Shown here: piece after piece, positions 773-63,124 of the stretch | How the letters are laid out: each line of letters begins with the position of its first letter | Position numbering within the stretch: position 1 is the first letter of the stretch | From: Malus domestica | Lineage: Eukaryota; Streptophyta; Magnoliopsida; Rosales; Rosaceae | Assembly (NCBI RefSeq): GCF_042453785.1 | Contig: NC_091673.1 | Location: 8,019,001 to 8,083,000, forward strand | Direction: 5' to 3' | Length of the DNA stretch: 64,000 bases | Program-made: the position numbers and the translations under genes | The notes under the pieces: model-generated | Seen by the model: only the letters and a program-made list of their open reading frames with translations | The model's database searches: none | Told to the model about the DNA's origin: nothing

Positions 773-1088
773 TGTTGTAAAATTGATGGATTAATGAATG
801 CCTACTCAAAAAGAACAAGACTTAGGAATAGTGTTTGATACTTTCAAAAGTACCATCATTATTTTGTGGATGGTTGTAGTTACGAGAGTCTCTCTATAAA
901 TAGAGCACTCCGTCTGTTATCAAATGCATTGTGGAAGAAAGCAAGAGAAATAAGATTAGTATCCTCCCCTCTCTTTATCTACCATCCTTTTTGTGTTATA
1001 GCTACTAAAGTTATAGTGTGATATTTTACACATGCTTTGCTCCTATCCTTAGAAAGGTTATCTCTTTAACTTTTGCCTATTTATAACA
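773..1088 (+). repeat. 5' LTR of the copia element
   Basis: 316 bp, TG...CA ends, colinear with 6846-7161. It contains the element's own promoter: a TATA box ctataaatag at 894-903 preceded by an AT-rich stretch, with transcription expected shortly downstream. Confidence 0.95.
894..903 (+). promoter_or_regulatory. TATA box in the 5' LTR
   Basis: The sequence ctataaatag is a strong plant TATA box; the same position in the 3' LTR reads ttataaatag. Its place in the middle of the LTR is what a copia U3/R promoter needs. Confidence 0.7.
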
Positions 1089-1089
1089 A

Positions 1090-1103
1090 GTTATCAGCAC
1101 GAC
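1090..1103 (+). other. Primer-binding-site-like sequence
   Basis: Directly after the 5' LTR the sequence gttatcagcacgac follows. Many plant copia elements carry a related (g)ttatcagcacga primer site complementary to a tRNA 3' region, a diverged relative of the initiator-Met site tggtatcagagc. The position is right; which tRNA is used was not tested. Confidence 0.6.
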
Positions 1104-1344
1104 TCTCTAACCTTAAATAGTTTCCATCTACCTTCACCGAAAGAAAGAAAAAAAATGTTTCCTCTAAGGATTTTACTGTTCATCTTCTTCCTCTGCCTCA
1201 ACTACTGGACATACCCTCGCGAAGAACTGTTTGCACCATGCCTACTTTTAGTTCTCAACCTAACAGTTACATATATCTTTGATTTCTTGTTTGGTGTAGC
1301 TATTGATTATTAACCCAGTGTTTATTTATATTTAACTGCAATCC

Positions 1345-1667
1345 AAGATAGTGCGGTACAATCGCCCATCTTGAACTGCAAATTTAATTTTCATTACGAT
1401 CAAAGATTGTGCGGTACAATCGCCCATCTTGAGCTGCAGATCTAATTTTACTGCAAATTTTAGGTGAAGCGGTAGTATAATCGTCCACCCTACCCTGCAT
1501 ATTTAAATTTTCCTGCTGTTTAATTTCATTGCAATTTTAGGTGGTGCGGTATAATCGCTCACCCTGCTGTGCGTATTTAAATTTTCCTGCTGTTTAAGTG
1601 GTACAAAATAATCGCACATCCTATGCTTGTTTCGATGAGAATGATGCGGTACAATCGCCCTTCTCAT
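1345..1667 (+). repeat. Array of about six related hairpins in the retrotransposon leader
   Basis: Between the LTR and gag a short motif recurs at 1345-1372, 1403-1430, 1462-1491, 1539-1565, a degenerate copy near 1597-1622, and 1635-1667. Each good copy has the core GCGGTACAATCGC or a close variant (GCG, a 7-base loop, CGC), enclosed by an outer stem that differs between copies: aagat/atctt, aggtg/caccct, atgagaa/ttctcat. Both sides of the outer stem change together. The copies are spaced about 50 to 100 bases apart, with similar linker text (ctgca, aatttaattt) between them. Confidence 0.8.
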
Positions 1668-1830
1668 TAATCATGAAAATCTCGAACCTGAAGTTTCGAG
1701 TGCTTATCATTCTTGGCCTGAATATCAAAATGAAAAATTTGTAAAAGTTAGAAGTTCTAACACTATATTCCTCAAAGAATACACATTATTACAAGTTCTT
1801 ACACATCTCATTTTTCTTTTAGATAAGAAA

Positions 1831-2700
1831 ATGGCGAACTTGGCAAAGCTTAATTTTGCTGCCCTGGACATTACTGGGAAGAATTACCTTACCTGGGTAC
1901 TGGATACCAAGATCCATCTGCAAGCAGGAAATCTTGGAGATACCATTAGGGAAGAGAACATCTCATCCTCTCAAAATCGGGCGAATGCCATGATCTTTAT
2001 TCTTCGTCATCTTGATGAGGGACTAAAGAGCGAATACTTAACGGTTGAAGATTAGTTAGCTCTCTAGAAGGCTTTGAGAAACAGATACAATCACCAGACA
2101 ACGGTAATTCTTCCAAGAACTCACTATGAGTTGACTCACCTAAAGATCCAGGATTTCAAGTCAGTGGCTGAGTACAATTCTGCGTTGTTCAGAATTACCT
2201 CTCAGATGAAGTTCTGTGGGGATACCATTACTGAGGAATACATGCTGGAAAAGACTTTGAGCACATTTCATGCCTCTAACGTGCTCCTGCAGCAACAGTA
2301 TAGAGCGCGAGGCTTCACTGAATACAACCAACTGATATATGTGTTCTTGGTAGCTGAACAAAACAATGAGCTACTGATAAAAATCATCAATCCTGACCTA
2401 CTGGATTTGCACCATTCCTAGAAGTGAATGTTGCTTCCCTCGAAGTGAACGCCACATCCTCTGGTGGCGATAATCATAAACAAGGACGTGGCCACAAGCA
2501 AGGTCGGTGGAACAGGAAAGGCAAGAACCATGGTGTTCAGTCTCACAATCAGGTTCCAAGGCAAAATTCAAGCTCGAGCTTTAAAAATGGAAATCACCAC
2601 AAAGGCAAAGCTCGTATGAACAAGGTTTTTAGAAACTCTGATGGAGCATGCCATAGGTGTGGTGGCGATTGACACTGGGTGCGTACCTGTCGTACCCTAA
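1831..2700 (+). pseudogene. copia gag (broken)
   Basis: Begins MANLAKLNFAALDITGKNY, typical of copia Gag with the UBN2-type region (YLTWVLDTKIHLQ, later EYNSALFRI). The frame continues with stops at about 2053 and 2419 and an in-frame TGA inside the zinc knuckle at about 2668. That knuckle is still legible as C-x2-C-x4-H-x4-C starting CHRCGG. A basic, Asn/Gly/Lys-rich linker (2464-2640) precedes it, as expected for RNA binding. Gag would form the particle that packages the element's RNA. The stops make it non-functional. Confidence 0.85.
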
Positions 2701-3019
2701 AACATCTGGTGGATTTATATCAAGCATCCCTCAAGGAGAAGGGTGTCAAGCCTAATTTCCTCGACTAAGCTAAACTAATGGATATACCTGATCCAGTGTG
2801 CGAATTATCAGGAAAGTTGAACATAACCCACCTAGATGTCTCAGACTTCATTGTGGAAAGGGGGAATGAAGTGTATCGGCCTGACTGAATCATTTATGCT
2901 TGATGTACTTTTATTATTTTGAACTTGTAGTTTAAAACTAGCATTTCAATTCAATAAAAGTGGCATTTAAATTTCCTGTTATAAGTTGTTTTTAACTGTG
3001 ATCCCCTTTACTCAAAAAG

Positions 3020-6000
3020 CATGGATAAAAACTATGGTTATTCTCTAAACATGAGAAATGGCAGAGATATTTGTCTTGCAGACAGCTCAACCACACATAC
3101 AATACTTCGTGATTGAAAGTATTTCTTAAGCTTGATGCTTACAAGAGTAAGGGTAACAACAATATCAGGCCAATCAAATGTAATTGAAGGCTCAGGGAAA
3201 GCCCAAATTATGTTACCAAATGGAACAATATTGTCCATACAAAATGCATTGTATGATACTCGATCTACTCAAAATTTGTTGAGTTTCAAAGACATACGTT
3301 TAAATGGATACCACATTGAAACAAAAAGTGCAGAAAATGTGGAGTATCTATGCGTTACCTCCAATGATACCCAGAAACGTGTATTGGAGAACTTGCGTGG
3401 TTTGTCGAGTGGATTGTATTATACATACATAAGGACAATTGATTCACATACTGTTATGAATCAGAAGTTCATTGATTCAAAAGATTACATGCTTTGGCAT
3501 GACCATTTGGGTCATCTAGGATCCACCATGATGCGTAGGATCATTACCAACTCTAATGGACATCTATTATTGAGCAGAGACATTGTTATCTTAAATGATA
3601 ACCCTTACAAGGCTTGTTCTTAAGGGAAATTGGTAATCAAACCATCACAACCAAAGGTTGATGCTAAATCCCCATCGTTTTTGCAAAGAATTCAAGGGGA
3701 TATTTGTGGGCTTATTTAACCATCATGTGGACCATTTCGATATTTTATGGTTTTGGTTGATGCATTTATCAGATGGTCACATGTTTGTCTCTTGTCTACT
3801 CGAAATGTAGCTTTTGTGAGACTTCTTGCTCAGATAATTAAGTTATGAGCACAGTTCCCAGATTACCCCATTAAGTCAATCTGATTGGATAACGTTGGTG
3901 AATTTACATCTTAAACCTTTGATGATTACTGCATGACATTGGGCATTGATGTTAAACACCATGTTCCTCATGTCTATACTCAAAATGGTTTAGCAAAAGC
4001 ATTGATCAAGCGGCTTCAGTTAATAGCTTGCACTCTGCTCATGAAAACAAAATTGTCAGTTTCTGCATGTGGACATGCCATCTTACATGTTGCATCATTG
4101 ATTTGATTGAGACCTATAGCCAACCACTAATACTCATCAGTACAACTCATGTTTGGGCATCAGCCAAACATTTCACATTTACGAGTTTTTGGTTGTGCTG
4201 TTTATGTGCCTATTGTACAGCCGCAACGCACTAAAATGGGACATCGGCGTAGGCTAGGAATTTATGTAGGTTTTGATTCACCATCTATCATTAGATATTT
4301 GGAACCTCTGACAGGTGATATATTTACAGCTCGTTTTGCTGATTGTCACTTTAATGAGACAGTATTCCCGTCATTAAGGGGAGAAAAGACTGTTCTAGAA
4401 GAACGGCAAAAGCTGACATGGGTTGTACCCACCTTGTTTCATTTTGATCCACGTAGCACTCAATGTGAAAATGAAGTGAAAATGATCGCTCATCTTCAAA
4501 ATATTACCAATCAAATGCCAGATGCATTTAATGATGCTATAAAAGTGACAAAATCACATATACCAGCTGCACATGCACCTGCAAGAATTGATGTCCCTGT
4601 TGGACAAAATAAAGTGGCAGCGAATGATTCATCTGGTGCACACCTAAAGCGTGGTAGACCCCAGGTTCAAAAGATTCAGCCTCTCGAAAGAGAAAGACAA
4701 TGGCACAGCTGAATCCAAATGAAATCATTAAGGAAGAGAGAATGAATGACAAATCCACAATTCATGATTCTGGACTTCCAGAAAAAGAAAATGTCCTTGA
4801 TGAGACACATGTCCCTGAAGAGACAACAGTACATGAAAGCAAAGAAATCTCTATAAATTATGCATGTACAAATGAATTGTGGGATCGGAATGAATTAATC
4901 ATCGATGATATGTTCGCATTCGCAGTAGCCATTGAAATCATATTAAGTGATGATATTGAGCCCCGCTCTGTTGATGAATGTAAACAGAGACAAGATTGGC
5001 CTAAGTGGAAAGATGCAATTCAGGCAAAATTAAATTCCTTGGAAAAGCGAAATGTTTTTGGACCGGTAGTCCAAACTCCACCTGATGTAAATCCTATGGG
5101 TTACAAATGGGTATTCACAAGAAAATGCAATGAGAAAAATGAGATTGTAAGATACAAAGCACGACTCATTGCACAAGGCTTTTCACAAAGACCTGAAATT
5201 GATTATGAGGAGACATATTCTCCTGTAATAGACGCAATTACGTTCCGTTACTTAATAAGTTTAGTGGTTTCAGAAAAACTTGACATGCGACTTATGGATG
5301 TCATCACTGCATATCTATATGGAGAATTAGATACTGACATATACATGAAGGTCCCAGAATGACTTAAGTTACCTGAAACAACTAACAAACCACGAGGTAT
5401 GCTCTCGATCAAATTAAGACGATCATTGTATGGGCTGAAACAATCTAGACGAATATGGTATAATCATCTCAGTGAATATTTGATCAAAGAAGGATATATC
5501 AACAATGTCATTTGCCCTTGTGTGTTCAATAAGAAATCCAATTCTGGATTTGCTATAGTGGCAGTATATGTTGATGATATGAATCTAGTTAGAACTCCTG
5601 AGGAGCTCAATAAAACTGCTGAATATCTGAAAAGCGAATTTGAAATGAAAGATCTCGGGAAAACAAAATATTGTCTCGACCTGCAGATCGAGCATTGTGC
5701 TAATGGAATTTTGGTCCACCAATCAACTTACATTGAAAAAATCCTGAAGCGATTTGGCATGGACAAGATTTATCCACTCAGCACGCCAATGGTCGTTCGT
5801 TCTTTGGACATTAAAAAAGATCCATTCTGTCCAAAAGAAGATGATAAAATGGTCATTGGTCTAGAAGTACCATATCTGAGTGCAATAGGTACTTTATTGT
5901 ATTTAGCACAATGTACTAGACCAGATATAACTTTTCCAGTTAACTTGTTAGCAAGGTATAGCTCTACTCCAACAATTCGTTATTAGAAATGAGTCAAAGA

Positions 6001-6625
6001 TGTTTTGTGATACCTTCGTGGGACAACAGACATGGGTCTCTTCTACTCAGAGAAATCCACAAATGACCAGATCCTTACCGAATATGCAGATGTTGGTTTC
6101 CTCTCTAATCCGCACAAAGCCCGCTCACAAACTTGATATGTGTTCAAGAATGGAGATACAGCAATCTCATGGCGCTCAACAAAGCAAACATTAGTTGCTA
6201 CATCTTCAAATCACTCAAAAATACTTGCTTTACATGAAGCAAGTCGTGAATGTTCTTAGTTAAGATCAATGATCCATCATATCCGGAATTCATGTGGTCT
6301 ACCTTCGAAGACAGACAATCCAATTGTCATCCATAAAGATAATGCAGCCTGTGTTGCCCAAATGAAGGAATGATTCATTAAGGGCGATAAGACTAAACAC
6401 ATATCTTCAAAGTTTTTCAGTGCACATGAGCTTCAGAAGGCTAAAGTTATTGAAGTCAGACAAATATGTTCCAATGAAAATCTGGCAGACCTGTTCACCA
6501 AGTCTCTACCAAAGTGCACGTTTCAGAAGTTAGTGCAGAGTATCGGATTACGTCGACTTACCAATCAGCTAAATTTGAAGAATGCGAAATCAAGAGGAGA
6601 TAAATATCAAGGGGAGCATCCATGA
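3020..6625 (+). pseudogene. copia pol: protease, integrase, reverse transcriptase, RNase H (broken)
   Basis: Remains appear in copia order. The protease active site is altered (DSSTTHT near 3079, where copia usually has DSGA). The pre-integrase motif LWHDHLGHLG lies near 3497, followed by a heavily damaged integrase core (3620-4150). Reverse transcriptase spans about 4970-5985 with MGYKWVF, RYKARLIAQG, MDVITAYLYGELD and YVDDM; a TGA replaces the residue after KVPE at about 5360. RNase H remnants run to about 6500 (HKDNAACVAQ, DLFTKSLPK). Multiple stops and frame shifts separate these pieces. It is a dead copy; the RT is the best-preserved part and the most useful for classification. Confidence 0.85.
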
Positions 6626-6633
6626 TACATGCT

Positions 6634-6817
6634 TGTTGTACTCTTTTTCCTTCGACTAGGATTTTTCCCATTGGGTTTTTCCTATCAAGGTTTTAACGAG
6701 GCAACATAAGCATACTTAACATTATATCAACAATCCAGGTAAAGTTGTACTCTTTTTCTTTCGCTATGATTTTTTCCCACTGGATTTTTCCGGACAAGAT
6801 TTTAACGAGGCAACTGA
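6634..6817 (+). repeat. Duplicated ~75-bp motif upstream of the 3' LTR
   Basis: The stretch starting gttgtactctttttc occurs at 6634 and again at 6744 and runs each time through a ttttaacgaggcaac end. Such repeated blocks just before the polypurine tract are common in plant copia elements. Confidence 0.7.
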
Positions 6818-6845
6818 TATTGATATGTAGGCATCCAAGGGGAAG

Positions 6846-7161
6846 TGTTGTAAAATTGACGGATTAATGAATGCCTACTCAAAAAGAACAAGACTTAGGA
6901 ATAGTGTTTGATACTTTCAAAAGTACCATCATTGTTTTGTGGATGGTTGTAGTTACGGGAGTCTCTTTATAAATAGAGCACTCCGTCTGTTATCAAATGC
7001 ACTGCGAAAGAAAGCAAGAGAAATAATATCAGTATCCCTCCCTCTCTTTATCTACCATCTTTTTTGTGTTATAGCTACTAAAGTTATAGTGTGATATTTT
7101 GCACCTGCTTTGCTCATGTCCTTAGAAAGATTATCTCTCTAACTTTTACCTATTTATAACA
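6846..7161 (+). repeat. 3' LTR of the copia element
   Basis: 316 bp, same ends as the 5' LTR and preceded by the purine tract aaggggaag. It is followed directly by ATAGA, the second copy of the target site. Confidence 0.95.
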
Positions 7162-7166
7162 ATAGA

Positions 7167-11100: not shown

Positions 11101-13817
11101 CACACCAGATACATGTACTTCACTACGCGTCAAAACGCATCACTATACGCATCACAGGCACTTTCCGGCCTAAGGATTCTCATAATATAGCTCACCACTC
11201 GATATTGCTTCATATGCTAATTGAGGGCATATGAAGTGCACGTGACAGTCTATTCCTCCTGCAGTCACAATCATTCCTTCCCCCGCAATGACCTCTGTGT
11301 TAACCTAAGTGATAAAGAAGAAGGCATAAGGACATTTTATCAACTTCCTATAAATTTTCTTTCCAGAACGACCTGCTGTAATATGAGATGATATTTACCC
11401 CAATAGTCATATTTACACCATTCATAACATCTGGATTGCCTGACTTTCCAAGTGCAAAAATGTTACCATCTTTGATACCAATATCTGCCTTATATATCCC
11501 ATTATAATCAATGATCACAGCATTAGTTATAACCGTATCCAATGAATTAGCTGGGTGGTTCCCACATGACTGGCCCATTCCTTCTCTTATAACTTTACCA
11601 CCTCCAAATATCGATTCATCCCCATAAACAGTAAAATCCTTTTCAATTTCAGCAAACAAGTTGGTATCACCAAGCCGAACTTTATCACCAGTAGTAGGGC
11701 CATACATGTTTGCATATGCCTCACGAGAAATTACAGTGGTGAAAGCTGGATTGCTTCCTGCAACACCTTCACTGCAAAATTAATACTGAGGTAAGGCATC
11801 TCCAATTTTTCCTTAACCATCTTAGTGAACTAGCTAACAATCATGCAACTTTATTGATCTAACAAAATAGAAGCAAGGAGGCAAATAAACATTTCTCTGG
11901 TAGAAAGCCTCGACCTAGCATTTGGTTCTTCCTCATGTCCAAATTCCTTTGCTTGTATGGCTTCCATGACTTCCTTTAGTTTGCCATCATCTACCGAACC
12001 ATCCACAATGCAATTTCCTCCTCTGATTACTCTAGTACCTCCAATTCTTACAAGTGCAACATGTTTGCTTTCCCCCGGCTGGCACAGCAAAACAAGCACC
12101 AATAACATACTTAGAATGCTAATAGTAGATTAAGCGGTAAAAAAAATGGTACTATACCAGCATGCAAAATGACAAAGTAGGGCCTAATTAACAAAAATAA
12201 GTGGCTTCGCAGCACCATGACTTCTATCACAAAAGTAGCACCCAATTATAGATGTAAAAGATGATGAAGGATGACATGACATCCTTGATAGACTTTGATT
12301 AGAAAAATATATGATAAGCAGAAAATATTTTGTGACTGACATGAACTAAACAACTTTTCATTACATAACAATGATAACATTGAAAAATGATTTAAGACAT
12401 TAAAGAACCTCAAATCTCTTGGCTGTTCCAGCTGGTATATTCAAGTGCATGCCATATGATTTCATTCGATCAAAAACCAGGCAGGGGTTGACCTCAATGA
12501 AGTGATAGTGACTGCCAACCTGAAAAAGTAGGGTAGTAACTAATCATAAGTCGGTTGCTTAATTGACACACTCTAAACCAGAACCAATAACCATACTAAG
12601 CTAAAGTAAATGAGATGTTGATTAGCTCAATCAAGAATCCCTTTCATCCTCGAACTAACGAATGCTTACATTTTGACTACAAGTGCATGCCATAAGCTAC
12701 TAGAAGCCAATTAAAACTGAATATGACTACAGAAGGGATATCACTATTTCAAGTAACTGAGAAATTATATGTAAAAGATAAACGCACCTGAACCGGCCTG
12801 TCTCCTTGGTTAACAACTCTGAGGAGTATTGCTTTCCTTCCATGATTAAGCACAATACAACCACCTCCATGGATAATTTCACCCGGAATTTTACCATCTT
12901 CCATTTCAGGAAACTTGTCTAGTGAGGGAACTGCAGAAAAATCTTATTGCATAAGTGCCCATAATAGGTCCCAGAACAGTCATTTGAAACTTCCAATATC
13001 CGATAGCCTTTACCAGGAAGAAAAGAATCCTTCAAAGCTAGTTCCAGATTTCCGTTCTCCCTAGAAATTGGATCGTGAATGGTGATTAACTTGGTCCCAT
13101 CACGAAAAGTCCCTTCAACCTGCATTTAAAATCTTACTTATAAATTTGATTTTAGGCAGAATGCTATGTCAGGGGTATGAGACAATAAGTTGGAAATTTT
13201 GACAAATTTTCAGCAGCAAGCATTATGTTTAAGGCTTTTCGAAGCAAATGCAAACAACCATAATGAGCATAATACCTGCACCATATCCAAAAGATAGTGA
13301 ACACCAGGAAGAACTTGTTTCCTGTTTGAAAAAGAAAGATGCAGATCAATCTTGAGCAACTAGACACATGATTTCGAGGTACGAAATTAGGAATACAAAT
13401 TGGTTGATTGCAATCCAGAATTAACATCCCACATACAAAAACAGGGCAAATTGATAAGATTTCACAGTTCACACCATTACCTTCCCAGCAGCTGTCTCCC
13501 AATGTCCATCAACTCCGCCACAGATTTATCGCCATTTCGAACGAACTCCAAAATCTACAAACACACAAACACATTAAACAAAAACGTTTCCTTTACAAAA
13601 CCCATTACCAAAATCCGATCAAAGTTCGTAAATTTGAACAAAAGATCAAGTTTCGGAGCAAAATCTGAAAAATACGAAGCAAAAAACACACCTGTGTGGC
13701 TATGAGAGCTGCAGCTTCTGGGTGATTCAGCCTCAACCCTCGAGCAAGACGCTTCTGCGCCAAAAACCCAGCATTGTTTAGGCTTAGTTTCTCAGCTTCT
13801 CTCGGAACCACCTTCAT
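7787..13817 (-). CDS. Urease (single-chain plant type), 18 exons, 835 aa
   Basis: Nickel enzyme that hydrolyses urea to ammonia and carbamate in the cytosol, recycling nitrogen. Exons, 5' to 3' on the minus strand: 13817-13692, 13554-13481, 13321-13276, 13119-13014, 12930-12788, 12519-12409, 12078-11915, 11771-11399, 11304-11196, 10681-10542, 10371-10234, 10126-10035, 9627-9498, 9402-9244, 8928-8761, 8506-8372, 8176-8105, 8008-7787. They sum to 2508 nt without an internal stop, matching the usual plant length of about 838. The gamma, beta and alpha regions of bacterial urease are fused in that order. Nickel ligands and catalytic residues are all present: His402 and His404 (CHVHF), carbamylated Lys485 (GLKLHEDWG), His514, His540, flap Cys587 (MVCHHLD) and Asp628 (SSDSQAMGR). 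The start chosen is the MKVVPRE methionine; a Met three codons upstream (13826) is possible. Intron 17 has a GC donor. It needs accessory proteins for nickel insertion, not seen here. Confidence 0.95.
8062..8097. repeat. (GA)n microsatellite in urease intron 17
   Basis: About 18 GA dinucleotides on the plus strand, hence (TC)n on the gene strand, inside the 96-bp last intron. On the gene strand it would read as alternating Ser-Leu codons if the intron were retained. Confidence 0.95.
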
Positions 13818-15499: not shown

Positions 15500-18400
15500 T
15501 CACAGAGGGCAAGGTAGACCATCGTTGTTAAGAATGTGCACCATGGAAGATGGGGGTCTCCTGACCCAAGTAATACCGCTCATCTCCACATTAGACCTCG
15601 ACGCCAGAAAGTCCGCCGACCGATTGGCCAGTCTTGGGACCCAAGACCAGCGACAGCCCTGGAAAGAATTCCGCAACCTCAAAATAGAATCCAGGATGGG
15701 GAACACTTCCCAGCTGCCCCGAGCAATACCACCCTGCAAAGACGAGACCACCTCAAGCGAGTCCGATTCAGCTACAATCTATCTACAGCCCAACTCCGCC
15801 GCCAACTCACAGCCCTTAAGCATCGCCAAAGCTTCAGCGAACACCACGGACGGAGCACCAAGAGACCACTTGTGGGCCGCCACAAACAGCCCATTATGAT
15901 CCCTCAGGATCGCAGCCAACCGTGCCATACCATCCACCTGACACCAGCTAGCATCAACATTAACTTTTATATAGGGAGCAGAAGGGGGGACCATCTAGGA
16001 GCCGGAATGGGGGAGGGGCGGGACAGGGACAAGGGAGCCTGCACCTCTAAAAAAGACCCCAGGGAGAAAGAGATAGAATGGAGCACCTGGGATGGGGCTA
16101 AGGCCGACTCCTTAAAGACAAAATTACATCTCGCATTCCAGATGTGCCAGCAAGAGAAAGCAATGATTGAGAGAATTCGCGATCTTTCCTGGAGATTAGT
16201 AGTCTTATTGATCAGAGCATTGAGCCAGTAATGGAAAGAGGGATCACATTCACCAACCCTTCGAAACCCAAGCGGACCACCAAACCAGATAGGTTCAACC
16301 CAGGGACACCTCAGCAGCAAATGCAGCACAGACTCCTCCTGAGATTTACAGACAGGACACAAAGGAGAAGAAGCAGACCTACGCTTGAACAAACCTCCCA
16401 CAGTGGCCAAAGCCTCCCTAGCAGCGCGCCACAAAAAATGGCGAATTTTTGGCGGGGCATTAGTCTGCCAAATCGCTTTCCAAACCGAAGTCCCCAAAGT
16501 ACTTGGGACACCAGAATCAGGAACCCCCAGCTGCCCCCGTGAAGAATGGATCCAGTGATAACCCTCCCGGACCGAATAGATACCAGTTCTACTCGCCGTC
16601 CAGACCAATCTATCCCGAATAGAACAATGCCCCAAAGGAATATCAAGAATGGCGTTGATTTCCACCTCAGGAATGAACGGTCGTAAAAAATCAATGTCCC
16701 AAGACTTGGACCTCGGGCAAATAAGGGAGGAGACCTTAGAAGTAAGAGTAACAGAAGTGGGAGGATCGGGATTAGGATGCCCAAGAGGAAGAGAGGGAAG
16801 CCAACGATCAACCCAAAGCCGAGTATCCTTACCATTCAAAATCTGCCAGTGTGCTCATTTTTTCAGAATGTCTCTACCCACAAGAAGGCTAGCCTACGCC
16901 CAAGAGGCACGACCTCCTAACTTCGCATCCAAGAAGGAAGAGTGAGGAAAGTATCTAGCTTTCAACGTCTGAGCCCATAAAGAATTTGGATTAAGCATCA
17001 AGCGCCAGCATTGTTTAACTAACAACGCATCATTGAAGTCCTGGAAATTCCGAAAGCCCAAGCCCCCTTCACTTTTAGGCCGACCCAGAGTATCCCAATT
17101 CACCCAATGAATCCTCTTATGCCCACCACAGTCACCCCACAAAAAGCCCGCCAACATAGAGTCAAGGTCTTTGCAAACAGCAGCCGGGAATTTAAACAGA
17201 TTCATAGGGTAGGTAGGAATAGCTTGGACAACAGCTTTCAATAAAACTTATTTCCCCGCAAAAGAGATAGCAGATTGCTTCCAGCCCTGGATCTTACCCA
17301 TCACTCTCCCTTTCACAAAAGCAAGACTACTTCGTTTAGATCTTCCCCAAATAGCAGGCAGCCCGAGATACACCCCCGGGTCGGACACCACCGGCATACC
17401 CAACAAGGAGCCAAGCTGCGACCTCACCTGGTCAGGAGTGTTACGACCGAAGTACACACTAGACTTATGAGAATTCATCATCTGACCCGAGGCCAAACAG
17501 TACTTGTTGAGGATATGCATAATGTTTTCACCATTTCTCAGATTCGCCTGAAGGCAAATTAAAGTATCATCAGCGAAAAACAGGTGCGAGATACTAGGCC
17601 CACGGGGATGCATGAGGATACCGCCGAGTCGCCCATCTTCCACTCCCCTCTGAATTGAACGAGAAAGAACATCACTAACCATAAGAAACAAGTACGGAGA
17701 GAGATGGTCACCTTGACGGAGCCCACGAGAGGGAGAAAACCAATTTCCAGGCTGACCATTCAGTAAAATTGCGAACTACACAGTGCGAACACAGTTCATG
17801 ACCAGGTTAGTCCAGCCACGACAAAAGCCAAGCTTCAGCAAAACCGCTTCCAGGAAGTCCCATTCAACCCGGTCATACGCTTTCTGCATATCTAATTTAA
17901 CACACATCTCAAACTTTTGCTGAGATTTCCTCAACTTCAGAAAATGGAACAATTCATGAGCAAGCCCAAGGTTCTCCTGAATTTGCCGATCCGCAATAAA
18001 AGCGTTCTGCATAGGCGAGATTAAAAGAGGCAGCAAGGGCTGCAACCGATTCGCCAACACCTTTGAAAGAATCTTAAACGAGAAGTTGCAAAGACTGATA
18101 GGACGATATTGGGACACCGATTCAGGATGAGGGACCTTAGGAATCAAGACAATGTAAGTAGAGTTAAGGCTTCGAGTGTTACCCTCCCCCTGCATGAAAT
18201 CCATCACCAAACCATTCACCTCAGCAACAATAATGTCCCAAAAAAAGTGATAAAAAATACCTTGGAACCCGTCCGGTCCCAGAGCCTTCAAACCCCCCAT
18301 CTGATGAACAGCAACCTTAATCTCCTCCTCAGAAACAGGTTTGATGAGATCATTATTCATTAACTCAGAAACCAGAGGTTCCAGACAGTTGAGAATATCA

Positions 18401-19626
18401 CCCCAATCCCGACAGCCCACAGAAGTAAAAAGGGATTTAAAATGCTCCTCCACTAAAGCGGGAACCCTCCGACTATCATCCACCCAAGAGCCATCCACAT
18501 CCTTCAACTTAACAATGGAATTAACCCGTCTCCGTTGGAGAGTCGTACGATGGAAAAAAGCAGTATTAGCGTCGCCCTCCCGAAACCAGTTAACTCTAGA
18601 CCGTTGCATCCAGTAAAGTTCCTCCTGCTCCCGCAACTGATCAATGCGATTAGACACAACATGTATCTCCTCCGCATTATCCTCCCAATGATGCTGAAGC
18701 GAATCCAGTTGCTGCACCAACTCCTCAATCTCCAAGCCACGCCGGTTGAACTTATTCCGACTCCAACTGATAAGATGAGATTTGCATATTGAGAGTTTCA
18801 GATTCCACAAGTCAATCCACCGCCCCCTACCTGGAGAGCCCCAGCACTTAGCCACTAGAGCCCTACAATCCTCTTCCTTAGCCCAGAACGCCTCAAAACG
18901 GAATAGCCGTTTACCCCTACGAGTAGCGGGCTGGGATAGGACCACGATTGGGCAATGATCCGAGCAAAGCGCCGTATCGTGATGAACAGAAGTATGGGGC
19001 CAAAGATTTTGCCAAAGAACGTTAGCAGCCGCCCTATCAAGCCTTTCCTCCACAAGATTACCATACCACCTACCACGCCATGTGAACTTCGGCCCATTGA
19101 ACCCCAGATCCACCAAAGCAGCTGCATTCAGAAAGTTATGCAAGTACCCCGATCTATTATACAGGACACTGGCTCCCCCCGATTTCTGATGGTCCCACAC
19201 AAACTCATTGAAGTCCCCACCACAAAGCCAGGGAATATCCGTCGGACCAAAATAGTTAGACATCCAATTCCAGAAATCCAGCTTCTCTCGTCTGTACGGA
19301 GTACCATAAACAAAAGTACAGCGCACCCAAGAGAGACTATCCTCCAAACAGAAACACACATCAATAATGTGAGCAGAAGAAAAGAGAATGTTAACATTCA
19401 TCGACTCAATCCACCATAAACTTAAACCCTCAGCCCGCCCAATCGGCGAAACATGGAAGCCAAATGAGTATCCCAAACGCCTACGAATACCGTCAATCCT
19501 ATGATCTCTCATTTTCATCTCAGATAAAAAGATCATAGAGGGTCTATGTTTCCTGATCAGCCCACGGAGGGCCCGAACTACCGGGTCCGACCCCAGACCT
19601 CGGCAGTTCCAAAGCAGGTAATTCAT
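15500..19626 (-). pseudogene. LINE ORF2: endonuclease, reverse transcriptase, RNase H (multiple stops)
   Basis: Starts MNYLLWNCRGLGSD at 19626. Endonuclease motifs: WNCRGLG, FLSEMK, GGDFNEF and SDHCPIV, with the catalytic Asn, Glu, Asp and His visible. Reverse transcriptase: LIPKVPHPES, QYRPISLCN, KLDMQKAYDRVEW, then after a TAG at 17776 the catalytic FADD (near 17580). A zf-RVT region (PPKIRHFLWRA, CPVCKSQEESVLHLL) lies near 16400-16300. An RNase H start (KVNVDASW, near 15965) is in another frame. Stops at about 17776, 17248, 16894 and 16850, and the shift near 15980, make it inactive. Long open stretches remain, so the insertion is not ancient. Confidence 0.88.
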
Positions 19627-21155
19627 GACTGTCGTGCGGCTGTTAGGGGCCAGCCGCCACCGCAACAAGTTGAGTCGTCCGGCATTTGCTCATGCCTAGC
19701 ATTCAGCTCCAATTCCCCACTTCCTGCAGGGTAAGATCCAAGGCATGGGCATGTAGAATGAAGCTCGAGAAAAGGTTGCCGCACCAAGGAATCACTCTCC
19801 CCCACCACAGATCCACTCGGAACAAAAATATTCCGAAATCGTGCTTTCATCTGACGCGGGATACCTCCATCTCCCTTCTTGATTTTCTTCGTGGCCGAGA
19901 GGCCTGATTCTAACTGCTTTAATTCGAGCAGCCTCTTTTTGTTTTTTTTACCAGAGGTTGGTTTAAGGTGGGCCACAGCTTGTGCAACCTCGTCCTGCGC
20001 CAATCTCAATCCATCAGCAGGCCGCCCATTACCTTCATACGGACCCTCCTCAATCTGAACAAGCTCCACGGATGGGCTTAACTCCAGTGGGATGTGAAAG
20101 TCCAAAGATCTGCTGGGTTGGGGGCCCAAAAGATTAAAAGCCCGACCCAATTGATCATGGAACTCGGGTAGATGATCAGCTAAGGCCCATTGACAGGATC
20201 CCAACGTAAGATCCACAACTCTAGACCCTTCCGTCAGTCTCGAGATCTGAACATTACTGGGACCTCAAGCCGCTTCCATACGTGAGGGGCCCTCCTTACT
20301 GACTACCTGAGCTTCACCCGATTGAGTCACCGTGTCCCGCACGCGCTGCCATCCTCCTCCACCCATCATCGACCTTTTCGTGCCCACCGTTCTCCGTCCG
20401 CTAGGATTCGAATACTCTGATCTCGGACGGTCAATAATTTCCCGAATCGGGGCAGCCTTTAGCCAGTCCCCATAACCATTTCCACCTCCCCGATGCTGCT
20501 CAAAAGAACAATCCATATTCGTATGCCCAATTCGTCCACACTTATAGCAAAAATCCTGGAGCCGTTCGTATCTAAATTCAAGCCAGGTTTCCTGATTCTG
20601 CTTCCTGGGCAACCAACATCCCGTGAGTAGAGGCTTAGAGGTATCAACAATCACTTTCGCTCTCAAAAACCCCCTTGCCAGAGACGGGTTTTCCACTTCC
20701 TCCACCTGCCCAATAGCCGAAGCTAACTTCGTGAGATTCGAAGGCGAGCAGAGACATAACGGAACACCCCGAATTTGGACCCAAAAGGGAACCAAGTCCC
20801 ATTGTATTTCCTCCAACGCTAAGTCCTGAGACCACCTTTTAACTGAGAAGTTTTTCTTCATCACCGCCCAGGGAACTTGAGAAAGAATTTGCCTGGCCGA
20901 GTTCTCATCAGGGACAATAATGATATACAGATTATCCTTTACCCACTTGACTTGCATCTCTCCTATATCCTTCCAGGCTGCCCGTAGAATGTTTCTGACC
21001 CCCCACTTGTTGAGTGGCTTCTCGTTTAATACCATTCCCACCAGTTTCACGCCGTTCTCCATCGGAGTTAATTCCAAAGATTCCTCGAGGTGTACGACCA
21101 AATCCTCCATCGCCGATTGTCCCTGGCCACTATCTTCCGTTGAAATCGTACTCAT
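19623..21155 (-). pseudogene. LINE ORF1 (nucleic-acid-binding protein), one in-frame stop
   Basis: Starts MSTISTEDSGQG at 21155. The N-terminal half resembles the DUF4283 domain of plant LINE and gag-like proteins (WAVMKKNFSVKRW, VPFWVQIRGVPL). A CCHC knuckle follows (CYKCGRIGHTNMDC, near 20510-20551). A TGA at 20265-20267 follows MEAA; beyond it the same frame stays open to 19623 with a basic stretch (GKKNKKR, TKKIKKGDGG). The whole frame would be about 510 residues. Its final TGA overlaps the ATG of ORF2 (ATGA, 19626-19623), which suggests coupled re-initiation in the active ancestor. Confidence 0.85.
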
Positions 21156-21625
21156 AAGGTGGATGAAAGAAAATGTAAAGAGGATAGAGAAATTGGTACT
21201 TCTTTCTATGAGGCCCAGAGAATGAAAGCTTGCTGGAAAGCGCGTTGAATCCGCTACAACGCTGGGATGAAGGGTAGATAGCACTAAGCGAACCACTCCA
21301 CCCATGGTTAAGAACCTGACTAGCAAAGCTATAACTGCTCTTAATTGAAACGCCACCAACCTCAGAAGACAAATCATTAAGCCTCCGACCATGCAAGAGA
21401 GAGACGCAATTAATGGAGGCCAGACTCACCAAGACACCACGACTAGATCACTCTCACAGAGGAGAGAAAAAACTCACTACGGAGGGCTCTCACCACGGAG
21501 AGATCACACTTTCAATAATGTTTGCATAGTTTTAACTGGCTGAAAATACCAGATGTCTTTTTTTAAACCAGAAAAAACTAGTTGCTATAGATACGCAGTC
21601 AAGCAATCTGGTACAAGTTTGCTAC

Positions 21626-37026: not shown

Positions 37027-37873
37027 CTCGGCAGAGCAGTAGCAGGGCATCTCGACAGATTCAAAACAGAGATTAAACCCCAGAGATTTTCGCCATAATA
37101 CTCATCACAGATGGATTAGAACCCACACAGCCAAGAAGGGAAAATAATTCATACCTGAGATGGAGTTCGAGAGAGCTGAAGCTCTCAGCATTAATGGCAG
37201 AGCACATAGTGATGCATCGATAATACATGCAACGCTGCAGGTTGATTCCCTATGTCCCAAGGGTTCGAGGTTCAGATTTTTAAGGGTTGATTTGGTCAGA
37301 ATTGAGAGGAATGGTGGGGGTTCCTTCTCGGAGCTTAGAGAGAGAGTGTGTGTCGAGAGTTAAAGAGTTATGTTTCAGAAAAATGAAGGAGAGGAGTGGG
37401 GGCCAGATGTAGGTATAAGAAAGGGTTTAGGTACTGTCGGTTAAAACTGACAGAATTTTTTTTTTAAATATAAATCGATAAAAAAAATTTCATTCCTGTC
37501 GGTTACAACCAACAGAAACAAAATGGCGGAAAAATTCACCCCACAAAATTCTGTCCCAAAATTTTAATTCCCTCCCAAAATTTTAATTCCCTCCAAAATT
37601 TTAAATTCCCCCCAAAATTTTGTTACAATTTAAAAAAATAAAATAATAATTGATTGGTTTAATAAATAAATAAATAATATGTATTTACGTAGAATACGCT
37701 TTTAAAAATTAAATAAATAAAAAAATTTTGGTCGAAAATAAATAATTGTTTGGTTTAATAGATAGTAACCTATGTAAAATATGCAATAAAGAAACAAAAA
37801 GATAATTGTACACGGAAAATATCATCACACAAACGAAATATTGTCTAATCAATACTTGAAAAACATAAATAAG

Positions 37874-39800
37874 AATGCAATGAACAAATTCGATCTTCAA
37901 TTTGAAATATTTACACTAGTGTATTCCACAAAATCTTATTTTATACTTAATGGAAGTATAATAGTAACTCTAAGTGTTTGTTTAATCTATCATTTTGACG
38001 TGATATGCCTTCTACGAAACTTTTTTCAACGATCGAACCGTCAAACTTATTTGTACACACTCCGAGATTGTATACGTAAAAAATCGTAAAAAACAAACAT
38101 TCAGAGATTACGTAACGGAACAAAAGTTTTCAACGATTATAAACAAAAAATCACAATTTAACGGTTATTTTAGCTCCGGTTTTGATGATTTTTTTACAGC
38201 TACACTCCTCAACCCTATAAGAATGCAATGAACGAATTTGATCTTCAATTTGAAATATTTACACTAGATTTTATACTTAATGGAAGTATAATATTAACTT
38301 TAAGTGTTTGTTTAATCTACCGTTTTGACACGATATACATTCTACGAAACTTTTTTCAACGATCCAACCGTCAAACTAAATGTACACACTCTGAGATAGC
38401 ATACGTAAAAAATCGTAAAAAATAAACGTTAAGAGATTATGCAACGGAACAAAAGTTTTCGACGGTTATAAACGAAAAATCACAATTTAACGGTTATTTT
38501 AGCTCCGATTTTGATGATTTTTTACAGCTACACTCCTTGACCCTATAAGAATGCATTGAACGAATTCGATTTTCAATTTAAAATATTTACACTAATGGAT
38601 AAATCTTATTTTATACTTAATGGAAGTATAACATTAACTCTTAGTGTTTGTTTAATCTACCATTTTGATGCGATAGGCATTCTACGAAGCGTTTTTCAAC
38701 GATCGAACCGTCAAACTTATTTGTACACACTCCGAGATTGTATACATAAAAAATCGTAAAAAGCAAACATTCACAGATTACGTAACGGAATAAATGTTTT
38801 CGACAGTTATAAACGAAAAATCACAATTTAACGGTTATTTTAGCTCTGATTTTAATGATTTTTTACAGCTACACTCCTCGACCCTATAAGAATGTAATGA
38901 AAAATTTTGATCATCAATTTAAAATATTTACACTAGTGGATACCACAAAATCTTATTTTATACTTAATGGAAGTATAACATTAACTTTTAAGTGTTTATT
39001 TAATCTACCATTTTGACGTAATACACATTCTACGAAACGTTTTTCAATGATCTAACCGTTAAACTTGTTTGTACATACTCTGATATCACATATGTAAAAA
39101 ATCACAAAAAACAAACGTTCAAAGATTAGGTAACAAAACAAAAGTTTTCGACGGTTATAAACGAAAAATCACAATTTAGCGGTTATTTTAGCTCCGATTT
39201 TAATGATTTTTTTACAGCTACACTCCTCGACCCTATAAGAATGCATTGAATGAATTCGATCTTCAATTTAAAATATTTACACTAGTGGATAAATCTTATT
39301 TTATACTTAATGGAAGTATAACATTAACTATAAGTGTTTGTTTAATCTACCGTTTGGATGCGATACGCATTCTACGAAGCATTTTTCAACGATCAAACCG
39401 TCAAACTTATTTGTACACACTCCGAGATTGCATACGTAAAAAATCGTAAAAAACAAACATTCACAGATTACGTAACGGAACAAAAGTTTTCGACGGTTAT
39501 AAACGAAAAATCATAATTTAACGGTTATTTTAGCTTCGATTTTAATGATTTTTTACAGCTACACTCCTCGACCCTATAAGAATGCAATGAATGAATTCGA
39601 TCTTCAATTTAAAACATTTACACTAGTGGATAAATCTTATTTTATATTTAATGGAAGTATAACATTAACTCTTAAGTGTTTGTTAAATCTATCAATTTGA
39701 TAGGATATGCATTCAACAAAACTAGTTTCAACAATCAAACCGTCAAATATGTTCGTATATACTATGAGATAGCATGTGTAAAAAATCGCAAAAAATATAA
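37874..39800 (+). repeat. Tandem array, about 5.6 copies of a ~340-bp unit
   Basis: Units start at the phrase aatgcaatgaa or a variant at 37874, 38222, 38550, 38891, 39240 and 39581, giving periods of 348, 328, 341, 349 and 341 bp; the sixth unit is incomplete. Each ends ctacactcctcgaccctata. Copies differ by scattered substitutions and small indels. Short open frames of about 65 codons recur in the units but follow no conserved codon pattern, so I treat them as non-coding. Confidence 0.92.
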
Positions 39801-54477: not shown

Positions 54478-56926
54478 TGGTACTCAGAGCCAGTGACTAA
54501 CGTCTTTTTTTTTTCTTTTCGGATTCTTCCTACTTTTCTCCATGGCTGCCTCAACCAGTTCGACTACTCCTTCCTCCGACATCTTCCCTTCTGTTTCTCA
54601 TGCGATCTCCATCAAACTTGACTCTTCCAATTATCCTCTTTGGTTGGCTCAGTTGCTACCTGTTCTTCGCAGTCGTCAATTGTTGGCTTTTGTTGATGGT
54701 ACTTCCATCTGCCCCTCGGCGTTCTTGTCCGACGATACCGGCAACGCCTCTTCCAAACCCAACCCCGCGTATGCTGACTGGGTTCAGAAGGACCAGCTTG
54801 TTCTTTCTTGGATCAATGGCTCTCTTGGTCACCAGGCCCTCGCCGCCACTGCTCGTCATTCCACTGCCCGTGATGTTTGGGTTGCTCTTCAGCAGCGTTT
54901 TGCTTCTACAAACCAAAGTCGCATTCTTCAGCTTCGTACTGCCTTCTTCTAGACCAAACGAGGTGATTCTTCAATTTCTGACTTTCTTGATAAGATCAAT
55001 GGTATTGCAGATCAATTGGCCCTTGCCGGGGCACCTGTTTCTGCTGATTACATGGTGCCGGTCGTCATGTCTAATGTCAGCCCCAAATTTGAGAACACTG
55101 TTGCTGCTGCTCAGGCTCGTGACAACCCCATCTCCCTTCCTGATCTTGAGGCTCTTCTTCTCGCTGCTGAACTCCGCCTTGCTGATCCTCCTGCTCCGCC
55201 GGACTCCAGCGTCTCGGCCCTGGTAGCCTCCCGCGGCTCTTCTGCCTCTCGTGGCCGCTCCTCTTCTGATCGCGGCGGCGATCGTGGCTCTGGCCGTTTC
55301 TCCCGTGGGGGTGGTCGTCCTCAACATGATGGGTCTCGCAACAATGGTGGTGACGACTATCGTGGCTATCGCGGTGCTGGTGGTTTCCATGACCGTCCGT
55401 TTCGCGATCGTGGTGGTGGTCGTCCTCAGCACGATGGCTCTCGCTTCCGTGGCTCCAACAATGCTTCTAGGGTTCTTGGTCCAGCCCCATATCACGGTTC
55501 CTCCCGTCCTCGCTGCCAGATTTGCAATACTTTTGGTCATGGTGCTCTTGACTGTGCTCAACGCCATAATTTAGCTTATGAAGGTCGTCCTCCTTCTTCA
55601 CGTCTCACTGCCTTGACTGCTCAGCACTCCCAGCCTTGGCTCCTTGATTCCGGGGCCAACTCGCATATCACCAATGATCTCAATGCTTTGTCTCAGTCCC
55701 GTGATTATCGTGGTGGTGATTCCGTCGGTGGTGTCGTTGGCGGTACAGGTTTGCCCATTAACCGTATTGGCTCCTCCACTCTCTCTCATAATAATATTTC
55801 TTTCAAGCTTAATGATGTTCTTCATTGTCCGGATGCCTCTACTTCTGTGTTGTCTGCTAATCGGTTTATGTTGGATAACAATTGTTATATTACATTGTTT
55901 CCTTCTTGTTTCTATATTCAGGATATGGAGACGGGGACGATTCTTTTTTCGGGCAAGAGTAGCAATGGCTTTTATCCCTTTTCCTCTTCATCACCGACTG
56001 CTCATGGTCGTGCTGCTTTTCTTGGTGTTTGTGTTGGTAGTGATGTCTGGCACTCTCGTTTAGGTCATCCATCTTCTTCCATTTTAAAATTTCTTTTTTC
56101 TAGGCATTCGAATAAGTTGCCTGTTTCTGGCAACCTCAATCTCAATACTTTTATGTGTCATTCTTGTCCCTTAGGCAAAAGTGTTAAGTTACCTTTTTCT
56201 GCATCATTGTCTGTTACTCAAGCTCCTCTTGAGCTTATTCACTCCGACGTGTGGAGTGCGTCCAATAAATCTGTTAGTGGTTTCCAATATTATGTTCTTT
56301 TTGTTGATAATTTCTCTCGTTATTCTTGGATTTATCCCATGACATTGAAATCTGAAGTCTTTAATATTTTTACTCACTTTAAGACCTTGGTTGAAAATCA
56401 ATTCTCCACTAAAATTAAGATGTTTCAGTCTGATGGTGGGGGCGAATACACTAGTCACCAATTCAAGAATTTTTTTCTTCACAATGGTATTCATCATTGT
56501 CTCTCATGCCCTCATCATCCCGAACAAAATGGTTTGGCGGAACGCAAACACCGTCACATTGTCGACACTGGACTTACTTTAATGGCCCATGCGTCGATGC
56601 CTCCTGCCTATTGGGCTGAGGCCATGCACACAGCAGTTTATCTTCTCAATCGCCTCCCCTCTAAAGTACTTGGTTTTATGTCTCCTTATCAAAAGTTGTT
56701 TCTTAAGGAACCTGATTATAGTTTTTTAAAGACCTTTGGGTGTGCATGTTTTCCCTACCTACGACCCTATAATAATAATAAACTCCAATTTCGTTCTACT
56801 AAATGTGTTTTTCTTGGTTACTCTCTCAATCATCAAGGTTATCGGTGCTTAGACATCTCTACTAACCGCATCTTTTTATCACGCCATGTTGTGTTTGATG
56901 AAGGTAGAAATCTTACAAATATATGA
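54478..56926 (+). mobile_element. Truncated Ty1/copia element (gag to integrase; no RT, no 3' LTR)
   Basis: A primer-binding-like site tggtactcagagcca at 54478-54492 is one inserted base away from the initiator-Met site tggtatcagagcca. It is followed by gag at 54542. The coding frame stops at 56924-56926, just after the integrase region where the reverse transcriptase should begin, and ordinary AT-rich DNA follows. No LTR like the upstream sequence is found downstream. It is a different family from the element at 773-7161: Ala/Pro/Ser-rich gag and GC-richer codons. Confidence 0.85.
54542..56926 (+). pseudogene. copia gag-protease-integrase frame with one in-frame stop, 3' truncated
   Basis: Starts MAASTSSTTPSSDIFPS. 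Gag hallmark KLDSSNYPLWLAQLLPVL is followed by a UBN2-type region; TAG at 54950-54952 interrupts after LRTAFF, and the same frame then runs open to 56926. A Gly/Arg-rich linker precedes the zinc knuckle (CQICNTFGHGALDC near 55516). The protease site is intact (LLDSGANSHIT, near 55640). Pre-integrase VWHSRLGHPSS lies near 56047. The integrase core keeps HSDVW, FVDNFSRYSWIYP, FQSDGGGEY and QNGLAERKHRHIV with the catalytic Asp, Asp and Glu. The frame ends RHVVFDEGRNLTNI. Apart from one stop and the truncation it is well preserved, so the loss of the 3' half is recent. Confidence 0.88.
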
Positions 56927-59635: not shown

Positions 59636-60790
59636 GGTACCGTGGCTTGAAGAAAATGAAGCCTATGTATCTGAATTCTTAACCAAAAAGACATGGAAAA
59701 CGCGGAGTACATGGAGAACATGAGTAATGTGTACAAAGAAAAAGGACACAAAGAACACGAATCAAAAGTATTTTTTGCCACGAGTCCATCATGTTGAGGA
59801 GCCGGCGGCGGCTTAATATTACTTAAGCCGAAAACCCACGAGGTAGCAGTCAAATTCAAAACCCACCACTCCTACATCATGTTTCCTTTTTGGATTGACA
59901 TTTGGACGCTGAAACGTGCAAGGTAAAAGGAGATGGTACCATGCTTGAAGAAAATGAAGCTTATATATCTGAATTCTTAACCAAAAGGATGTGGAAAACA
60001 CGAAGAACACAGAGAACATGAGTAATGTGTACAAAGAAAAAGGACACAAAACACGAATCAAAAGTATTTTTTTGCCACGAGTCCATCATGTTGAGGAGCC
60101 GGCGGCGGCTTAATGTTACTTAAGCGGAAAACCCACCAGGTAGCAATCAAATTCAAAACCCACCACTCCTCCGTCATGTTTCCTTTTTGGATTGACATTT
60201 GGATGCTGAAACGTACACGGGAAAAGGAGATGGTACCGTGGCTTGAAGAAAATGAAGCCTACGTATCTGAATTCTTAACCAAAAGGACATGGAATACACG
60301 GAGAACACAGAAAAAAGGACACGAAGAACACGAATCAGAAGTATTTTTTGCCAGTTGAGGAGTCGGCAGCGGCTTAATATTACTTAAGCCGAGAACCCAC
60401 CAGGTAGCAATCAAATTCAAAACCCACCACTCCTCCATCATGTTTCCATTTTGGATTGACATTTGGATGCTGAAACGTACAAGGGACGAGAAGATGGTAC
60501 CGTGGCTTGAAGAAAATGAAGCCTATGTATCTGAATTCTTAACCAAGAGGACATGGAAAACGTGGAAAATACGGAGAACATGAGTAATGCGTACAAAGAA
60601 AGAGGACACGAAGAATACGAATCAAAAGTATTTTTTGCCACGAGTCCATCATGTTGAGGAGCCAGCGGTGGCTTAATATTAAGCCGAAAACCCACCAGGT
60701 AGCAATCAAATTCAAAACCCACCACTCCGCCATCATGTTTCCTTTTTGGATTGACATTTGGATGCTGAAACGTGCAAGGGAAAAGAAGAT
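59636..60790. repeat. Four tandem copies of a ~290-bp unit
   Basis: Copies begin at ggtaccgtggcttgaagaaa or a close variant at 59636, 59935, 60232 and 60496; the spacing is 299, 297 and 264 bp, and the last copy ends near 60790. The third copy lacks about 30 bp (around 60310-60350). Copies differ at only a few percent of positions by eye. The unit yields apparent 70-90-codon frames on both strands, but frames are broken at different points in different copies, so it is judged non-coding. Confidence 0.92.
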
Positions 60791-61410
60791 TATAATGTTG
60801 TTGTTGCGGGCGGTAGAATGGTTAACAAACAATATTATTTACGCTGAGGGAGATGAGGTAGGCTTAACCTCATAATAGGATAACAATAATGTGGTTCAAA
60901 TCCGCATTTGGTGGGAATTGAATCTAAAACATATCATTTACAAGTGAAGAGAAATACAATTAGAGTACCTATAAATTTGGTATCAAAACCCAACCACGGT
61001 ACCTTATACATTCTGTATCAAAACTCACGGTCTATAAAATCAAATACATTGAATAATCAACATGTAGCTAAGGTATTCGACCTCTAGTATAGAATCAGGT
61101 TCGATTGCGATAATTTACCTCTTGAACAAATATAATATCACATTTTATGTCTGCTTTCGAAAGATTGTGTTTGTAAATAAAAATTTCAAAATTCAAACTA
61201 AACAATCTAAAAGGGAAAATACTATTTATAACATTAAGGACAAATGGAGCAGCAAATTCAAACTCGTATTAATGTAATAATGTGGTCTCGTAATGGAGGT
61301 AGTGTATTGTTGGTCTTCTACAATTCAAAAAAGTTTAAAAAATAATAAAGAGCTGGTTTGAAAGTATGACTGAAAGTGCTTTTGGTGAAACTATTTTGAA
61401 ACTAATTCTT

Positions 61411-62694: not shown

Positions 62695-62833
62695 AAATTT
62701 TTATGCTTTGTGTCCTGTAATTGTACACTTTATAAATTTTCTTTAAAAATAAAATTCAGTATTTAACTCCAATAATTTAACTTTAAATACAAATCAAAAC
62801 ATAGCATTACAAACTCAATATTTATCTCCCTTT

Positions 62834-63124
62834 GCCCTTGTACGCTTCAACAATCAAATGTCAATCGAAAAAGGAAATATGATCGAGAACTGTTGGGTTT
62901 TGAATTTGATTGCTACCTGGTGGGTTTTCGGCCTAGTAATATAAAGCTGCTGCCGGCTCCTCAACATGATGGACACGTGGCAAAAAATACCTTTGATTTC
63001 GTGTTCTTCATGTCCTTTTCCTTTGTACATATTATTCATGTTCTCCATGTTTTTCATGTTTTTCATGTCCTTTTGGTTAAGAATTCAGATACAAAGGCTT
63101 CATTTTCTTCAAGCCACGGTACCC
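62834..63124. repeat. Single inverted copy of the ~290-bp unit
   Basis: Reverse complement of the unit repeated at 59636-60790, ending aagccacggtacc at 63112-63124. It is more diverged from those four copies than they are from each other, which suggests that the four arose by later tandem amplification in the left arm. Confidence 0.88.

Follow-up and report, generated by a model that had tools for sequence, protein, structure and literature searches.

A structured palindromic hairpin array in the leader of a decayed Ty1/copia element of Malus domestica

The leader of a decayed Ty1/copia element of Malus domestica carries a palindromic repeat array, in an unusual place for a plant copia element. 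The array is real and structured: it holds six copies of a short hairpin, among them two tandem duplications, its folding excess over shuffled sequence is concentrated in the hairpins, and the array as a whole folds more strongly on the transcript strand. We tentatively read it as a structured RNA domain of the element's genomic transcript, perhaps a packaging or retention signal bound by Gag, and we consider an array that works as DNA, or unselected duplication, nearly as likely. All positions refer to the window, which is the whole 64,000-nucleotide stretch that was analysed.

The host element occupies 773-7161, and only this one copy was analysed. Its landmarks are:

773-1088, + strand: 5' LTR with TGTTG...ATAACA ends, from blastn against the 3' LTR (94% identity)
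1831-2055, + strand: presumed start of Gag, with an ATG at 1831 and 74 codons followed by an in-frame stop
4700-5362 and 5399-5986, + strand: copia-type reverse transcriptase in two open pieces (Pfam RVT_2, 5.6e-27 and 4.7e-25)
6846-7161, + strand: 3' LTR, from blastn against the 5' LTR, with the target site duplication ATAGA directly after it (7162-7166)

Membership of Ty1/copia is given by the paired LTRs with TG...CA ends, the 5-bp target duplication (ATAGA at 768-772 and again at 7162-7166) and the copia-type reverse transcriptase recognised by Pfam RVT_2. The LTRs are 316 nt each and have 19 mismatches between them (K2P 0.063, about 6% divergence). The TATA box at 895, inside the 5' LTR, suggests a transcript start near 925, which would give a leader of about 900 nt ahead of the ATG at 1831. 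The first-pass annotation had placed the hairpins in a copia leader, and the LTRs, the flanking ATAGA repeats, the TATA box and the Gag ATG bear this out. The piece at 1831-2055 has no Pfam match, and we take it to be Gag from its position and from general familiarity with such elements. Just upstream of the 3' LTR, a 71-nt motif (TTGTACTCTTTTTC...TTTTTCCCAYTGGRTTTTTCC...AAGRTTTTAACGAGGCAAC) is present in two copies that are 86% alike (6635-6705 and 6744-6814); we presume it to be of a kind widespread among plant copia elements, and a 21-base pattern from its first copy, in the element's 3' region, had no match in IMG/VR.

The six hairpin copies lie at 1344-1668, five of them good and one degraded, as the annotation had counted them:

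1344-1373, + strand: hairpin c1, outer stem CAAGAT/ATCTTG, core at 1353-1365
1400-1432, + strand: hairpin c2, outer stem with a bulge, core at 1411-1423
1461-1492, + strand: hairpin c3, outer stem TAGGTG/CACCCTA including a single bulged base, core at 1469-1484
1538-1566, + strand: hairpin c4, tandem duplicate of c3, core at 1546-1558
1595-1618, + strand: degraded copy c5, core at 1598-1615 with arms GTGGT/ATCGC that can pair using U-G, loop enlarged, outer stem lost
1634-1668, + strand: hairpin c6, outer stem GATGAGAA/TTCTCATT, core at 1646-1658

The core GCGGTACAATCGC is exact in c1, c2 and c6, has one mismatch in c4 and contains three extra loop bases in c3, while c5 prefers a different fold when its flanks differ. 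The core had been described as GCG-GTACAAT-CGC, with a 7-nt loop; folding instead predicts a stem of 5 bp closed by the triloop ACA (GCGGU-ACA-AUCGC), or AUA in c4. When up to three mismatches were allowed, the core matched 11 places in the 64 kb compared with 5.7 expected, a count reached by 4 of 100 shuffles; seven of the 11 lie outside the array, each with 3 mismatches. The covariance model and the pair count given below were limited to c1, c2, c4 and c6, with c3 and c5 dropped beforehand, because the loop insertion of c3 was misplaced in a six-copy MAFFT alignment. The model recovers the four copies from which it was built by construction and also detects c3 (E 6e-4); the next best of the 22 matches listed has E 0.31, and c5 is absent among those 22.

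A search with Rfam 15 at the gathering score found no family match in the leader. Its sole match in the window, to 5_ureB_sRNA at 11212-11590 (54 bits), probably marks a host urease gene rather than an sRNA, since by eye the opposite strand reads like urease coding sequence. The window also holds a second, different copia fragment (54560-56926), broken off after about 56926, with gag-pre-integrase, rve and SH3-like domains at 55016-56926 (Pfam); it contains no hairpin core at three or fewer mismatches. Other repeats of the window are a LINE-like element at 15967-21392 on the - strand, with a DUF4283/zf-CCHC_4 protein, an endonuclease with RVT_1, and zf-RVT; a tandem array at 37869-39797 with a period of about 340 nt and copies 82-88% identical; and, at 59636-60790, 61409-62696 and 62824-63129, tandem repeats with a period near 298 nt, a later inverted copy of their unit and, between the two, an extensive self-inverted region.

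Folded as a whole on the + strand, the array (1340-1671) reaches -90.1 kcal/mol compared with a shuffled mean of -69.0 (z -4.49), and none of 200 dinucleotide shuffles folds as well; that shuffled controls might do so had been named at the outset as a reason to give up the structure. On the - strand the z is -2.47, and four of 200 dinucleotide shuffles equal it. As a background, 63 other stretches of 332 nt from the window were folded on the + strand with 30 shuffles each; their z averages -0.30, and two reach that of the array. The leader at its full length (1089-1830), which the annotation had proposed to fold, is not unusual (z -1.12, with 2 of 20 shuffles as good). The excess is located in the hairpins: in mononucleotide shuffles of 1314-1680, none of 150 sequences with only the hairpins shuffled was as stable, with pairing limited to 45 nt or unlimited, while shuffling only the spacers left 20 of 150 as stable locally and 4 of 150 unrestricted. 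When the spacers were reordered, 0 of 60 sequences reached the same unrestricted energy and 11 of 60 did so locally, which hints that the spacers contribute to a long-range fold.

The lowest-energy fold contains one such domain:

1387-1680, + strand: predicted long-range domain, closed by ATTTTCAT/ATGAAAAT and holding c2-c5 and c3-c4 duplexes and the c6 hairpin

Only c1 and c6 remain local hairpins in this fold. The c2 copy pairs with c5, TGTGCGGT with ATCGCACA, by a helix at 1408-1415/1611-1618 that joins the 5' arm of c2 to the 3' arm of c5, and c3 pairs with c4 over nearly its whole length. In the leader, the pair probability of the local hairpin is 0.00-0.01 for c2, c3 and c4, and its mean is 0.94-0.98 for c1; for c6 the mean drops from 0.89-0.90 in the leader to 0.15-0.16 when 1340-1671 is folded by itself. 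Cross-pairing of this kind is expected of any tandem array of such a unit, as each copy is nearly palindromic. Alongside packaging, Gag binding and translation control, the annotation had suggested a dimerisation signal. Predicted homodimer gain is no better than that of shuffles, either for the six copies (96-199 of 200 shuffles as good) or for the array (-5.2 compared with a mean of -10.2 for 15 shuffles), and these predictions lend no support to dimerisation via self-complementary hairpins, which we left aside. Silencing hairpins of the miRNA-like type were set aside as well, no 110-nt segment of the element, taken every 5 nt, reaching the -40 kcal/mol cut-off that was used for maize (PMC10760457); segments starting at 1330-1570 go down to -30.2 kcal/mol. 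The element's eight most stable 110-nt segments lie at 2588-2757, downstream of the Gag start and not in the array, with a lowest value of -34.8 kcal/mol.

Repeat-family analysis and TRF identify c1 and c2 as tandem duplicates with a 58-nt unit, and c3 and c4 as tandem duplicates with a 74-77-nt unit. Because both pairs are plain duplicates, the independent stem types are three: CAAGAT/ATCTTG, TAGGTG/CACCCTA with its bulged base, and ATGAGAA/TTCTCAT. The c3/c4 stem had been written as aggtg/caccct; GGTG/CACC does pair directly, but the next pair needs the bulged base. The first-pass annotation regarded the change on both sides of the outer stems as compensatory, and as evidence of selection on structure rather than plain tandem duplication. 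Each of the three stem types can pair, but two-sided changes are not in excess: in the ungapped four-copy alignment they occur at 1 of 12 pairs and 322 of 500 shuffles score as high, the power of four rows being very low. The preference for selection over duplication was right only in part: two pairs of copies are plain duplicates and the pair counts lie within the range of shuffles. The argument from compensation is a reasonable one, but it draws on three stem types within a single decayed element.

Pairing is found in 83% of the cells of the four-copy alignment compared with 23-50% when slid, a figure that is partly built in, as the structure was derived from the same sequences. If one extra base is allowed in the 5' arm of c6, two-sided changes can be seen by eye at four positions, but this register was picked for its agreement with the pairing. 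In an arm-swap matrix, five of the six 5' arms (those of c1, c2, c3, c4 and c6) had their best 3' partner within their own stem type; even so, the 5' arm of c4 matches the 3' arms of c1 and c2 more strongly than its own, and for c5 too those of c1 and c2 are the better partners. Judged by eye, the loop can accommodate both changes in core length (c3, c5), and each of three single-base variants (c3, c4, c5) remains paired as G-U, on the + strand only.

It is doubtful, though a serious contender, that the array is unselected, a chance quasi-palindrome spread by tandem duplication in units of 58 and 74-77 nt, with stems that match by chance or through template switching, in which one arm is copied into the other. 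Both close pairs of copies being plain tandem duplicates is in keeping with this, as are the c3/c4 spacers, which in the alignment look by eye at least as conserved as the hairpins, the lack of excess two-sided changes, the lost outer stem of c5, and the arms of c2, which pair no better than shuffles (1163/3000). Drift of this sort would be less expected to leave a core common to all three stem types (16 of 33 columns are invariant across c1, c2, c4 and c6) while the flanks differ, to keep the c1/c2 hairpins at 29/31 identity compared with 19/27 in their spacers, or to locate an array-wide folding excess in the hairpins. A parallel exists in the Tat lineage of plant elements, where hypervariable tandem repeats are common in 3' untranslated regions and have been proposed to arise during element replication (PMC7004042). 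The Tat/Ogre repeats resemble the array as short tandem duplications in an untranslated region of a retrotransposon; they differ in lying on the 3' side and in belonging to another lineage, and the parts of that paper available to us describe no conserved hairpin core.

The transcript strand is favoured only by the array as a whole, and not by single copies. Folded singly on the + strand, c1 to c6 have z values of -2.89, -0.81, -1.24, -1.54, +0.64 and -2.71, with 3, 43, 23, 13, 143 and 4 of 200 shuffles as good; on the - strand the values are -4.75, -1.03, -1.64, -1.97, -1.68 and -1.81, better in five of the six. When the flanks were shuffled and the core kept, the number of 3,000 shuffles as stable was 88, 1163, 639, 469, 2036 and 325 for c1 to c6 on the + strand and 4, 335, 445, 182, 571 and 304 on the - strand, lower for all six. 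The largest - strand advantage among the copies is that of c1 (-17.1 kcal/mol compared with -11.2 on the + strand). The stability of the outer stems relative to flank shuffles is modest on the + strand, with combined values of 0.015 (c1, c3 and c6), 0.012 (c1, c4 and c6), 0.10 (c2, c3 and c6) and 0.027 (all six). Arm duplexes taken alone were equalled in strength by 141, 1995, 232, 556, 1986 and 58 of 5,000 shuffled arms for c1 to c6, and by fractions of 0.074, 0.29, 0.086, 0.082, 0.60 and 0.019 of 20,000 random window positions; by the latter measure c6 is unusual, c1, c3 and c4 are less so, and c2 and c5 are ordinary. Since single copies show no advantage on the transcript strand, we weighted the RNA reading down and a DNA reading up. 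The annotation's argument for selection on RNA structure holds in so far as the array is structured beyond chance, but RNA over DNA is a lean.

By analogy with known elements, it is possible that the array acts in DNA, as a set of imperfect palindromes bound by a host DNA-binding protein, and would constitute an enhancer or insulator within the leader. Copy by copy, the symmetry gives the transcript strand no advantage, since against flank shuffles each of the six is better on the - strand, and there are analogues in the repeated motifs of Sireviruses, the leader of Drosophila copia and the gypsy insulator. On the other hand, the LTRs have no copy of the core at three or fewer mismatches, pairing of the outer arms would be needless for a DNA-binding dimer, and the folding excess of the whole array is greater on the transcript strand.

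The Sirevirus motifs are palindromic repeats reported from 13 elements, in the LTRs and before ENV, in which the CGG-CCG core is constant and the symmetric sequence around it varies (Bousios et al. 2010, PMC2829016). The present array resembles them in that short palindromes are clustered in non-coding parts of a plant Ty1/copia element, with one shared core and symmetric arms that differ. The Inga motif AGCGGTASTACCGCT matches the core here at 11 of 13 positions, although among 5,000 random hairpin cores of similar composition 117 agree equally well with one or another Sirevirus motif. There are at least eight Sirevirus copies per element and six here, including the degraded one; the Sirevirus motifs occupy the LTR ahead of the TATA box and, for the most part, the linker that precedes ENV, whereas the present copies are in the leader only; and the CGG-CCG signature of all but Tnd-1 differs from the core GCGGTACAATCGC (PMC2829016). 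In Drosophila retrotransposons, tandem repeats of the 5'UTR are bound by proteins and function as an enhancer or insulator (PMC7168160). Like the element here, copia, ZAM and gypsy are LTR elements whose untranslated leader holds a repeat array, in gypsy one of similar size (350 bp, 12 degenerate sites), but these repeats are described as DNA-binding sites, with no hairpin mentioned in the portions available, and the comparison is one of description, not of sequence (PMC7168160).

The annotation knew of no described plant copia leader with such an array. Searches of open-licence literature, which reach part of what is published, showed no leader array of this kind in a plant copia element among the papers listed and the passages available, but the Sirevirus motifs and the Drosophila 5'UTR repeats are related published precedents. 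The core was not found in the open-licence papers searched, and the matches listed for the primer-site string are unrelated by title.

The leader also contains upstream open reading frames, the longest of which precedes the array:

1155-1313, + strand: 52-aa hydrophobic uORF, from translation, ending 30 nt before c1

Control of translation by this uORF, the array and short uORFs across c6, which would make ribosomes stall, reinitiate or shunt before Gag, is improbable. The leaders of plant pararetroviruses are a precedent for stalling, reinitiation and shunting, and the arrangement here is in keeping with it: the long uORF stops 30 nt short of c1, two uORFs with starts at 1623 and 1635 share an end at 1670, a little beyond c6, and two more (1673-1744 and 1730-1744) precede the Gag ATG. 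Other short leader uORFs lie at 1032-1052 and 1238-1282. In a leader about 900 nt long, however, chance should supply upstream ATGs, and a uORF of 52 aa is long for classical shunting. The 1155-1313 uORF has no match in Pfam.

On our preferred reading, that of a structured RNA domain in the genomic transcript, an ancestral hairpin with the near-constant tip GCGGU-ACA-AUCGC would have been multiplied by two tandem duplications and some earlier copying. The tip would have stayed nearly constant, and the outer stems would have drifted without losing their pairing, the pattern to be expected where a protein recognises the tip and the stem does no more than present it. The likeliest reader would be the element's own Gag, judging from the position of the array between the primer site and Gag, some 415-745 nt from the presumed transcript start, and the array may then act as a multivalent packaging or retention signal. 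We infer the transcript start, the selection on pairing, the protein partner and the packaging role. A more specific form of the proposal is unlikely, namely that the element represents a plant copia lineage with a multivalent leader signal, in which tip-conserved hairpins, spread by tandem duplication, are set in a nested domain (c2-c5 and c3-c4 paired, c1 and c6 free) and Gag reads the tip.

Yeast Ty1, of the same superfamily, has a structured cis-acting RNA near its 5' end that is bound by Gag and involves palindromes, with a packaging region proposed at +230-580 (PMC8396678). Compared by description, it differs in being built of a pseudoknot and two palindromes (PAL) and not of a repeated hairpin (PMC8396678). 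Among plant copia elements, BARE (BARE2) is credited with dimerisation and packaging signals that are conserved (PMC3735527), and the accessible text of a 2025 review of plant LTR elements names no packaging hairpin (PMC12786077).

Pattern and protein scans of IMG/VR and GTDB, which are viral and prokaryote collections, found no plant copia sequence. The single-core pattern matched 99 stretches in IMG/VR, with one match in each of the 80 listed, and these were taken as chance. A pattern of two spaced cores had no match in IMG/VR; in GTDB it matched three bacterial loci, which were rejected after being judged by eye as a protein-repeat array and two unrelated pairs. Protein searches of IMG/VR with the two reverse transcriptase pieces and the Gag start, single-protein queries that reach close relatives only, found no related protein.

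If the reading as a multivalent array read by Gag is true, the element would have an array-type packaging signal not found in the open-licence literature searched. A repeated hairpin with a near-constant tip would offer a defined RNA ligand for tests on plant copia Gag, and a means of asking whether the palindromic arrays of such elements work at the level of RNA or of DNA.
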